64,000 nucleotides of DNA from Prevotella sp. (GTDB taxonomy: Bacteria; Bacteroidota; Bacteroidia; Bacteroidales; Bacteroidaceae): contig JAGAPR010000005.1 in NCBI GenBank assembly GCA_017623155.1, positions 55,933-119,932 of the forward strand. The letters are read 5' to 3'. How positions within the stretch are numbered: position 1 is the first letter of the stretch; every line of letters begins with the position of its first letter. A program made the position numbers and the translations under genes. Shown here one piece after another: positions 12,230 through 63,301 of this stretch. The notes below the pieces were generated by a model that ran no database searches, was not told the DNA's origin, and saw only the letters and a list, made by a program, of their open reading frames with translations.

Positions 12230-12636
12230 TTTTAGACAAAGTGCTCTGAGAATCGATTCTTTTTCACGAAAAAAATTTTTTTGCGAAATACGCGAGTTTT
12301 GAGGTGTTTTGTGTAAATATCTGTATTTCAAAAGTTTACGGCGATTTATTCCGATTTTCAACGCTTTGAATATTGTCTTGTTTTGCAATTAGGCCGTAAT
12401 TGCATTCCAATTAGGCCGTAATTGGACTGCGATTAGGCTGTAAATGCAATGCAATTACGGCCTTATTGCAGAGTAAAAAAGGGCGAAAAGTGCCTCTTGA
12501 CCCGAATAATTGTATTTCAACCCCAAAATAATGATACGAAAATGTCAATTTAAATTTTCGGCTTTTTCTAAACGGTGACTTCAAGTCGCACCTTTTTCTT
12601 TTAACATTTACCGCTCGGTTTTTACAAATTTTAAAA
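12230..12636 (+). repeat. Dispersed ~445-bp intergenic element, copy A
   Basis: The core at about 12386-12472 holds four near-palindromes of the type CAATTAGGCCGTAATTG, with GGCC centres 22, 22 and 23 bases apart, three in one orientation and the last inverted. The right part (about 12525-12636) contains a conserved block with CTAAACGGTGACTTCAAGTC. Copies C and D carry the same order of parts; copy A is the most diverged on its left side, so that edge is approximate. No protein is encoded. It lies in the 875-bp gap 12077-12951. Confidence 0.8.
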
Positions 12637-12677
12637 GAACGAACCCTCCCTGTCTCCCCAAGGACGCCCCTCTTAAT

Positions 12678-12693
12678 CTCCCCCAAAAGGGAG
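12678..12693. repeat. CTCCCCC/GGGAG palindrome
   Basis: One more member of the CTCCCC/GGGGAG palindrome family lies just right of element copy A. A fragment GTAGGGACGCACGGTCC at 12742, resembling the TTGTAGGGAC ends of the elements at 30.0 and 63.5 kb, follows it. Confidence 0.5.
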
Positions 12694-12894
12694 AAACGGA
12701 GTGCAAAGTTATGCTTACCTTTATATTTAGAATTTTTTAAAGTAGGGACGCACGGTCCGTATTTTGATACAGCCCCTGCTTTGCGCTTCATTTGAATTTT
12801 GACACAGCCGCATTAGAGGATACTTCAAAAAACTTTGCGTTTTAGCGTCTTGGCGTTTTTTTACCTTTTTACCTTTAATAAAAGCGTTGTTTGT

Positions 12895-20694: not shown

Positions 20695-20805
20695 GAATTA
20701 CGAATTTGTTACGCGGCCGAAGTAACATTGTTACTTGGTCCAAACCACATCGTTACTACGGCCAAATCACATCGTTACTACGGCCGCGTAACAAATTCGT
20801 AATTC
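20695..20805. repeat. 111-bp palindromic element with four GGCC-core units upstream of priA
   Basis: Perfect 25-bp inverted repeats (20695-20719 and 20781-20805, sharing ACGAATTTGTTACGCGGCCG) enclose a small array. One unit GGCCGAAGTAAC is inverted; three follow as GTTACTTGGTCC and twice GTTACTACGGCC. GGCC (or GTCC) centres lie at 20715, 20738, 20760 and 20782, i.e. 23, 22 and 22 bases apart. AATTACGAATT-type words also flank it at 20648 and 20871-20888. No gene is present in 20649-20937. Confidence 0.85.
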
Positions 20806-31743: not shown

Positions 31744-31904
31744 GTCTTTTGATTTTAACTTAAAAATGTTAATGAAAAGTAAGAAGACATTACATTTGAA
31801 ATATTTGAAGTAGGTTTTATTAACTTAAAAATATTAACATGTATAGCCTTTGTTTTAATATTAGATAACAGTTGACGGCCATTTTCTTCATATTTTTCCC
31901 GTTC

Positions 31905-32125
31905 TTACTCTGCAATAAGGCCGTAATTGCACTGCATTTACGGCCTAACGGGCGTGCAATTAGGCCGTAATTGGAATGCAATTACGGCCTAATTGGAAAA
32001 CAAGACGGTTTTAAGTGCCTTTAAAAAAACGTGTAAACATCCGTATCTTTCTTATATACAGATAATTACGTAAAGTGCTCCGTAATTCGCTTATTTGCGT
32101 GCTCGAAACTTTTTTTTTCAGAAAA
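31905..32125 (-). repeat. Dispersed intergenic element, copy B (partial, inverted)
   Basis: Read on the reverse strand, the core matches the other copies. Four GGCC-centred units lie between about 31911 and 32000, with centres 23, 21 and 23 bases apart. The AT-rich part to about 32125 (with runs like AGAAAAACGCAAATATGAG) corresponds to the left part of copies A, C and D. The right-hand block with GGTGACTTCAAGTCGCAC is absent, so this copy is truncated. Together with a TTTTAGTTCA/TGAACTAAAA hairpin (32164-32189) it fills most of the 31653-32577 gap. Confidence 0.75.
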
Positions 32126-32282
32126 ACGCAAATATGAGCAGCGTTAATTTTTTTAACTGTCCGTTTTAGTTCATTATATTGAACTAAAATAGGGGTTAAG
32201 GAGTTAACTCCCGAGATTTCCTGTTGTCGCGCATGCTGAATTCGCATCCGCAATATAGCGGATTGTAGAAGCGTACCTCTGA

Positions 32283-41795: not shown

Positions 41796-42240
41796 TTAAT
41801 AAACTTTAATGCTATTAACAATTCTGATATTATATTTACAAAATAAGGCCTCATAATTGCGTTCTTTTCAAAAAATAATTTCCTCGGCGAAAAAAACGCA
41901 ATTTTAGAGCATTTTGCGTAAAATGTTGTCTGTCAACATCTTACCTACAAAACCTACCATCCCTACGCCCCTTACAACCCCTCCTCATTTCCAATTAGGC
42001 CGTAATTGCATTCCAATTAGGCCGTAATTGGAACGCAATAAGGCCGTAAATGCAATGCAATTACGGCCTTATTGCAGAGCAAAAACACCCGAAAATCATG
42101 CTTAACCCCGAATAATTGCAGTCCAACCCCGAAATAATGATACGAAAATGTCAATTTAAATTCTCAGCTTTTTCTAAACGGTGACTTCAAGTCGCACTTT
42201 TTGCTTTTAACAAATACCTCTCGATTTTTACAAATTTAAA
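41796..42240 (+). repeat. Dispersed ~445-bp intergenic element, copy C
   Basis: The left part (from TTAATAAACTTTAATGCT) is shared with copy D at 62677, followed by a block with CTCGGCGAAAAAAACGCA. The core at about 41994-42080 has four GGCC-centred units 22, 22 and 23 bases apart, and the right part has CTAAACGGTGACTTCAAGTC as in copies A and D. It ends near AAATTTAAA at 42240. No protein is encoded. It occupies most of the 41670-42473 gap between the GH31 operon and rpsU. Confidence 0.85.
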
Positions 42241-42372
42241 CACAAAAGATGCAGAGACTCACAGAGTAACTTCTTGCCCACATAGGCACGGAGACACAGA
42301 GCTTTTTTGCCGTCCGGTCATTGGCAATAAAGCAATGACAGAATAAGTTTTTTTCAAAAAAGTGTCTGAATA

Positions 42373-62676: not shown

Positions 62677-63122
62677 TTAATAAATCTTAATGCTGTTAAC
62701 GTCTCTGATATTATATTTACAAAATAAGGCCTCGTAATTGCGTTCTTTTCAAAAAATAATTTCCTCGGCGAAAAAAACGCATTCTCAGAGCATTTTGCGC
62801 AAAACACTGTCTGTCAGCCTTTTATCTGCAAAATCTACCTTTCTTACACACCCTACAACCCCTACTCATTTCCAATTAGGCCGTAATTGCATTCCAATTA
62901 GGCCGTAATTGGACGCTCGTTAGGCCGTAAATGCAATGCAATTACGGCCTTATTGCAACGCAAAAACACCCGAAAATCATATCCGACCCCGAATAATTGC
63001 AGCCCAACCCTCAAATAATGACACGAAAATGTCAATTAAAGTTCTCGGCTTTTTCTAAACGGTGACTTCAAGTCGCACTTTTTTCGTTTAACAATTACCT
63101 CGCGATTTTCACACTATTTAAA
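62677..63122 (+). repeat. Dispersed ~445-bp intergenic element, copy D
   Basis: It begins TTAATAAATCTTAATGCT, parallel to copy C at 41796, and runs in close agreement with it to ATTTAAA at about 63122. The core (about 62874-62960) has four GGCC-centred units spaced 22, 22 and 23. The conserved CTAAACGGTGACTTCAAGTC is in the right part. C and D are the two closest copies. It abuts the higA fragment. Confidence 0.85.
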
Positions 63123-63140
63123 GGAGAGACCCCTCTTAAT

Positions 63141-63279
63141 CTCCCCAAAGGGGAGAAAGGGGAGTACGTCACAGTTTCGGAGAACTCTGAAAATAAATAC
63201 AGCCAATCATGCCTCTGCCTTTCTCCTCCCCTTGGGGAGGCTGGGGCTTCTCATCACTCCGTTTCTCCCCTTTGGGGAG
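63141..63279. repeat. Cluster of three CTCCCC/GGGGAG palindromes
   Basis: Palindromes at 63141-63155 (CTCCCCAAAGGGGAG), 63225-63240 (CCTCCCCTTGGGGAGG) and 63265-63279 (CTCCCCTTTGGGGAG). Between them is CGGAGAACTCTGA, close to the spacer of the pair at 2408-2622. Confidence 0.65.
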
Positions 63280-63301
63280 ATTAGCAAATAAGAAATAAAG
63301 T

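Follow-up and report, generated by a model that had tools for sequence, protein, structure and literature searches.

Evenly spaced intergenic arrays of GGCC-centred palindromes in a Prevotella genome and in related species

The element described here, an intergenic sequence with four 22-nt GGCC-centred palindromic units at its middle, is real and is a member of a larger system. It was first noticed in a 64,000-nt stretch of DNA from a gut Prevotella sp. (the window), the source genome of which (G000) is a 2.74 Mb MAG that is 84% complete; other genomes of the genus are likewise referred to by number. In G000, two array families with different arms, alpha and beta, keep a single even spacing along the chromosome, and arrays with arms of their own are evenly spaced in two further species of the genus. 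We think it possible, at somewhat short of an even chance, that the arrays serve to bind proteins or to wrap DNA and that they act upon the whole chromosome, not upon single genes. The main rival is a MITE-like element with local insertion exclusion, and neither reading is proven. Interspersed bacterial repeats have mostly been explained as selfish or gene-local. An even spacing in three species whose arms differ, common also to two families of one chromosome, would speak for repeats being retained for the sake of spacing at the scale of the chromosome; the MITE-like rival, if true, would have target immunity shaping a whole chromosome. We know of no name for the element.

Anatomy of the element and its sequence constraint

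The element opens with a leader, continues with four palindromic units of 22 nt that are each centred on GGCC, and closes with a tail. It occurs in two types: type I has the unit order + + + - and the tail CTAAACGGTGACTTCAAGTCGCAC, and type II has the unit order + - + - and a tail around AGTTAACAAAACCTACTT. Our own sorting assigned 21 of the 44 arrays in the long stretches of G000 described below to type I and 23 to type II. Within the window, arrays were present at all four places that had been claimed as copies, and the predicted array of four GGCC units in the middle of the element was confirmed. Copy C (41796..42239, plus strand) is a full type I element that extends from TTAA to TTAA and reads, left to right and all on the plus strand, as a conserved outer leader block (41826..41899), a variable inner leader, the + + + - array of four 22-nt units (41992..42075), a linker, and finally CTAAACGGTGACTTCAAGTCGCAC as the tail motif (42174..42197). 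Copy D (62677..63121, plus strand; array at 62873..62956, plus strand) is likewise full type I from TTAA to TTAA and is 88% identical to copy C, in agreement with the claim that the two are alike from end to end. Copy A (12230..12645, plus strand; array at 12386..12469, plus strand) was said to keep the same order of parts; compared with the consensus by eye, its leader is type II-like and its array and tail are type I, so that copy A appears to be a hybrid. Copy B (31745..32160, minus strand; array at 31913..31997, minus strand; all ends approximate) had been taken for a truncated copy of C and is instead a type II element, with the unit order + - + -, another tail and degenerate outer parts. 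A fifth array was overlooked in the original prediction: located at 20695..20805 (no strand assigned, ends read by eye), it has inverted outer ends and belongs to beta, the second array family, which has the arms GTTAC/GTAAC.

Mapping of the ends showed them to be sharp, as copies are bordered on both sides by TTAA and the consensus fades beyond it. Of the 20 type I copies that the long stretches contain, five have no recognised type I leader and, because copy A also looks hybrid, modules may be exchanged between copies. By eye, the inner leader of type I (about 41940-41990 in copy C) has CTAC words every ~9 nt within a pyrimidine-rich stretch. Words like CCCCTCTTAATCTCCCC and GAGACACAGAG, which are further short repeats, crowd around the copies at 12650-12730, 42240-42310, and 63120-63290.

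Substitutions per site were computed across 14 type I copies, which were left after six of the 20 sorted ones had been excluded (five for want of a recognised leader, one for having five units). They amounted to 0.023 in the outer leader, 0.160 in the inner leader, 0.021 in the array, 0.084 in the linker, 0.020 in the tail, and 0.160 in the outer tail; altogether these copies carried 406 substitutions but 0 indels. The corresponding values for 17 type II copies (21 sorted, four set aside) were 0.153, 0.193, 0.036, 0.158, 0.029, and 0.208, with 1076 substitutions and 13 indels. All three modules were matched in 26 of the best 30 loci from the whole-copy search reported below, and the distances between them were 216 and 132 nt in 26/26; these loci were chosen by score, a choice that favours ungapped copies. 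The claim that the copies lack a reading frame also stood, as 14 copies of type I and 17 of type II revealed neither a common open frame nor a 3-base, codon-like periodicity, and a coding function was rejected on these grounds.

Copy number and spacing along the chromosome

Searching G000 with the array core pattern (≤3 mismatches) returned 103 forward and 105 reverse matches, compared with 0 matches for the same pattern written backward; this excess lies far outside chance, as do the folds of the arrays of B, C, and D given below. The core pattern differs from its reverse at only 2 positions, and we therefore read these 208 strand matches as about 104 arrays. A whole-copy search of the same genome found at least 40 copies (the best 40 of 128 candidates scored), and among the copies listed those of type I share ~84-95% identity across as many as 445 bp. 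Extrapolation from the array density of the long stretches would suggest about 156 arrays per genome. The type I tail matched 46 times in G000 and, when the tail and array matches were compared, an array lay at the usual distance from the tail in 46/46 cases, one of these partners being supplied by the array calls in the long stretches and not by the core-pattern list.

The original prediction offered two options for the element, mobile or chromosome-organising. Its copy number, its sharp ends and the rarity with which sites are shared between species do speak for mobility, and they are also what one would expect of a selfish, MITE-like, non-autonomous element. Under this rival, an outside transposase would read the 22-bp units of alpha and beta by the same recognition plan and insert copies into intergenic DNA, and bound copies would shield the kilobases around them (target immunity) and so give rise to the even spacing; we regard it as a serious contender that is nonetheless clearly below an even chance. 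It can draw upon the ~104 arrays, the sharp ends with their TTAA borders, the different sites occupied in different species, the breaking of contigs at element copies in the G000 assembly, and the inverted outer ends that we made out by eye in copies of G235 and G140 and in the beta copies of the window; in alpha, terminal inverted repeats are weak. Immunity would also account for the exclusion distance reported below. On the other hand, the two flanks of a copy were found to have no longer words in common than the flanks of other copies (15 type I, 18 type II), which gives no signal of target-site duplication, although a duplication of TTAA itself would not be distinguishable from TTAA ends. 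Similarly, none of the 46 type I tails in G000 lacks an array, and no Y1 (REP-type) transposase (PF01797), the one transposase family searched for, was found in G000, G235, G284, G128, or G133. Selfish decay also should not spare the array and tail while holding length. The MITE-like rival explains the copy number, the ends and the spacing, and the substitution-only pattern less well; MITE status is not established. A Y1 transposase is present in 14/24 array-rich and 10/24 array-poor genomes, and mobilisation of the REP/RAYT kind was rejected because Y1 is missing from the richest genomes. The element fails a defining test of RAYT-borne REPs.

The chromosome-organising option gains from the substitutions without indels, from the even spacing of the arrays and from the single spacing of the two families. 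We found 44 arrays in 772 kb of G000 (C89 1-343900, C42 1-217000, C102 60001-207092, and the window), these stretches being long contigs chosen for holding arrays. Four units were called in 41 of the arrays, and 43 lie outside called genes, the exception being a small frame inside a copy. The 40 spacings have a mean of 18.2 kb, a CV of 0.433 and a minimum of 7.35 kb, and none of 5000 random placements into intergenic gaps was as even; a separate analysis concurred. Although contigs break at copies, an assembly artefact was rejected as the source of this pattern since spacing was measured inside long contigs. The other G000 contigs gave 29 spacings with a minimum of 7.9 kb and a CV of 0.57, based upon a core-match list that is incomplete (it includes 36/40 of the arrays known on C89, C42, and C102); an exponential law would put 8.5 of those 29 spacings below 7 kb.

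Fuzzy searching located beta in 12 places in G000, of which one, the remnant of a single unit lying 356 nt away from alpha, was dropped and 11 were kept, including three that had one pattern match only and were accepted as arrays by eye. These 11 beta arrays sit 6.1-19.1 kb from the nearest alpha array, such that 0/11 lie within 6 kb of alpha vs. 5.8 expected for random gaps without alpha, an avoidance matched by 2 of 20,000 simulations. An extra beta array from a fold scan lies 9.7 kb from alpha. As a control, six other repeated intergenic words fell <6 kb from alpha at 52/61 loci and <1 kb at 36/61. When alpha and beta were pooled, the CV was 0.405 and the minimum 6.1 kb. One spacing is kept jointly by the two families despite their different arms. 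It seems most improbable to us that this evenness is a by-product of recombination, in which close repeats recombine and are lost while distant ones stay. The type I copies are similar enough over a sufficient length to suggest such a process, but the arrays of G235 and G284 are short and variable and yet as even, and alpha and beta avoid each other with differing arms when other repeats in the genome show no avoidance.

By our first gene caller, 19/41 G000 arrays occupy divergent gaps and 4/41 convergent gaps, compared with 39/142 and 28/142, respectively, for all gaps over 300 nt, and the tail points towards the start of a gene in 17/20 type II copies for which both neighbours were called. 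A divergent count of 22/39 from a second caller was rejected as too high, since this caller placed a spurious frame within type II copies; both callers are simple in-house scripts. Together with the strong folds of the arrays on both strands (z from -5.6 to -9.7 for copies B, C, and D), this gene context could indicate an RNA or transcription element, i.e. tandem UTR hairpins that terminate transcription, shield mRNAs or contain promoters. We consider this improbable. Palindromic DNA folds on either strand regardless of any RNA function, compensated changes were seen in 2/71 predicted pairs with a covariation term of -0.8 (25 aligned type I copies, in which the array hardly varies), and an Rfam search at gathering scores matched five tRNAs only, leaving the element unmatched. 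A structured RNA family was rejected on the basis of these last two results. Moreover, the rival leaves the spacing unexplained, and no clear gene-orientation preference was found for the arrays in G235 and G284, which speaks against a gene-local role.

Related arrays in other Prevotella genomes

Related Prevotella had been proposed as the place to look for further copies, and the alpha array core was found in 0/99 other genomes of the genus. Arrays of the same build with other arms do occur. Using the pattern GGCC-N18-GGCC-N18-GGCC, 17/397 other genus genomes had ≥10 matches and three times as many as a CCGG control, among them G235 (101/0), G284 (76/1), G069 (68/2), G128 (45/5), and G133 (42/1); matches were counted as overlapping, and hence long tandems such as those of G118 score repeatedly. 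Three genomes instead have CCGG in excess over GGCC (G160, 10/48; G273, 2/24; G328, 0/14). A marked excess of either array was absent from 377/397 genomes, so that the genus can do without the system. Across the order, the triple pattern was matched in 20/294 other genomes and never more than 10 times. Arms vary among the species: ~AAAC-GTTT in G284 and G133, AAAC/ATTTCGCA in G235, TATAT-ATATA in G140, and TCACT-AGTGA in G118. An array of G128 (L262) has the arms GTTACATGGGCCGTGTAAC, which are close to the beta arms of G000. In G118 (L120-L126), the 22-nt palindromic unit forms longer tandems with up to eight GGCC in a row, in which the arms are constant and the loop bases variable. Among the nine best symmetry axes in each of seven families were axes ~11 bp apart, with the exceptions that G235 had them on one side only and that those of G118 were offset by 1.5 bp from the GGCC centre. 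By our reading, AT/GC phasing is clear in four of the seven families only.

Spacing was even in G235 (25 arrays in 347 kb, 15 called with four units; CV 0.425; 1/5000 simulations as even) and G284 (31 arrays in 200 kb, six called with four units; CV 0.440; 0/5000 simulations as even), in stretches drawn from contigs known to hold arrays. The arrays were called with a matrix trained separately for each species on the runs of its genome, which replaced a crude GGCC-run detector after the weak result of the latter had been seen. The crude detector gave a CV of 0.72 in both genomes and no significant evenness (p 0.06-0.08 in G235 and 0.17-0.28 in G284), which we attribute to its inclusion of GGCC pairs without arms. 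G133 was rejected as a further evenly spaced species (26 weaker calls in 349 kb; CV 0.907), and the stretches of G069, G128, and G210 contained too few arrays for a spacing test. Sites were rarely shared. Comparison of G000 with G235 gave 49 reciprocal best hits and hence 98 gene sides, at which an array lay beside both genes once, beside the G000 gene only six times and beside the G235 gene only eight times, and the other five species pairs, with 2 to 13 reciprocal best hits each, had no array sites in common.

The gene downstream of copy C encodes a tyrosine recombinase, which is probably XerC as judged by its neighbours. Its nearest named relatives are in Prevotella sp. MGM1 (83%) and Xylanibacter rodentium (71%), in a search that may have left out its own species. 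Upstream of the same rpsU-xerC promoter region in MGM1 is a 296-bp element (L158:5113-5395) that is bounded by perfect inverted repeats of 16 nt; it differs from alpha and was rejected as a form of it; the MGM1 genome has one complete and four weak partial matches to this element.

Possible roles and known systems

If the arrays do organise the chromosome, symmetry axes that recur every ~11 bp, or one helical turn, over ~88 bp would place bound dimers or a wrapping enzyme, for which gyrase is a candidate, on one face of the DNA, and the leader, array and tail at their fixed distances might then assemble one larger complex. With one site per roughly 6-18 kb, the chromosome could be pinned, looped or supercoiled. 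New sites would arise by copying into intergenic DNA and older families such as beta would yield to newer ones such as alpha. Because sites too near an existing one would not be kept, the spacing would survive as sequence and position turn over between species. For this organising reading we count the evenness in G000, G235, and G284 with differing arms, the avoidance of alpha by beta and not by six other repeats, the conserved modules at fixed distances with type I free of indels, the ~11-bp recurrence of symmetry axes in seven families, and the absence of a preferred gene orientation in G235 and G284. The axes, the phased AT and GC blocks of four families, the module distances and the kilobase spacing would suit a DNA complex that is wrapped or built of several proteins. 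Against it we count the uneven G133, the 377/397 genomes without a marked excess, the lack of site conservation between species, the null result of the crude detector, the phasing limited to four of seven families, and the preselection of stretches for arrays. A stronger proposal, which on balance we consider unlikely, is a "spacing code" in which interchangeable palindrome arrays of 22-bp pitch, reworded from species to species, would punctuate some Prevotella chromosomes at nearly regular intervals. Selection would then act to preserve their geometry and spacing rather than their sequence or their neighbouring genes, as array families replace one another. The organising and MITE-like readings can hold together, should a spreading element have later been put to use.

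In the literature that we searched, we found neither a comparable element in Prevotella nor an intergenic repeat family with even spacing, nor a spacing common to arrays with different arms. matS and parS are short chromosome-acting motifs with many or several sites that are bound by conserved proteins. The present system similarly has many short sites and a proposed action upon the chromosome, but its sites are four-unit arrays and their wording differs between species of one genus. Spacing of the arrays along the chromosome is non-random in G000, G235, and G284, and not in G133.

In layout the element recalls BrickBuilt, and in its clustered palindromes it recalls BIMEs. BrickBuilt is found in Porphyromonas gingivalis, which belongs to the Bacteroidales, the same order as Prevotella. 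BrickBuilt is reported to be a MITE with 19 copies and 23-nt tandem units that number from 1 to about 23, its terminal repeats resemble IS5-family elements, and its proposed effects are at the transcript or promoter level, as the RNA/transcription rival also invokes (PMC4596501). Both elements are intergenic, have a leader, short tandem units and a tail, and are limited to a species or its near relatives (PMC4596501), whereas here there are ~104 arrays of usually four palindromic 22-nt units with even spacing, the alpha ends read as TTAA, and IS5-like ends were not found.

REPs and BIMEs share with the present arrays clustered intergenic palindromes of alternating orientation and species-specific families (PMC3733652, PMC6379681), and here 43/44 arrays are intergenic with the unit orders +++- and +-+-. 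REPs are described as having GTAG or CGTC ends and being tied to RAYT genes (PMC3733652, PMC6379681); by contrast, Y1 is missing here from the richest genomes, and the arrays have a strict 22-nt pitch and even spacing. In E. coli, BIME-2 attracts gyrase and is cut by it, and the gyrase motif is described as symmetric, about 130 bp in length, and phased in GC at 10.75 bp (PMC6379681). This motif is degenerate and defined by cleavage and is not a repeat (PMC6379681), unlike the present arrays; its phasing is reminiscent of the phased arrays described here.
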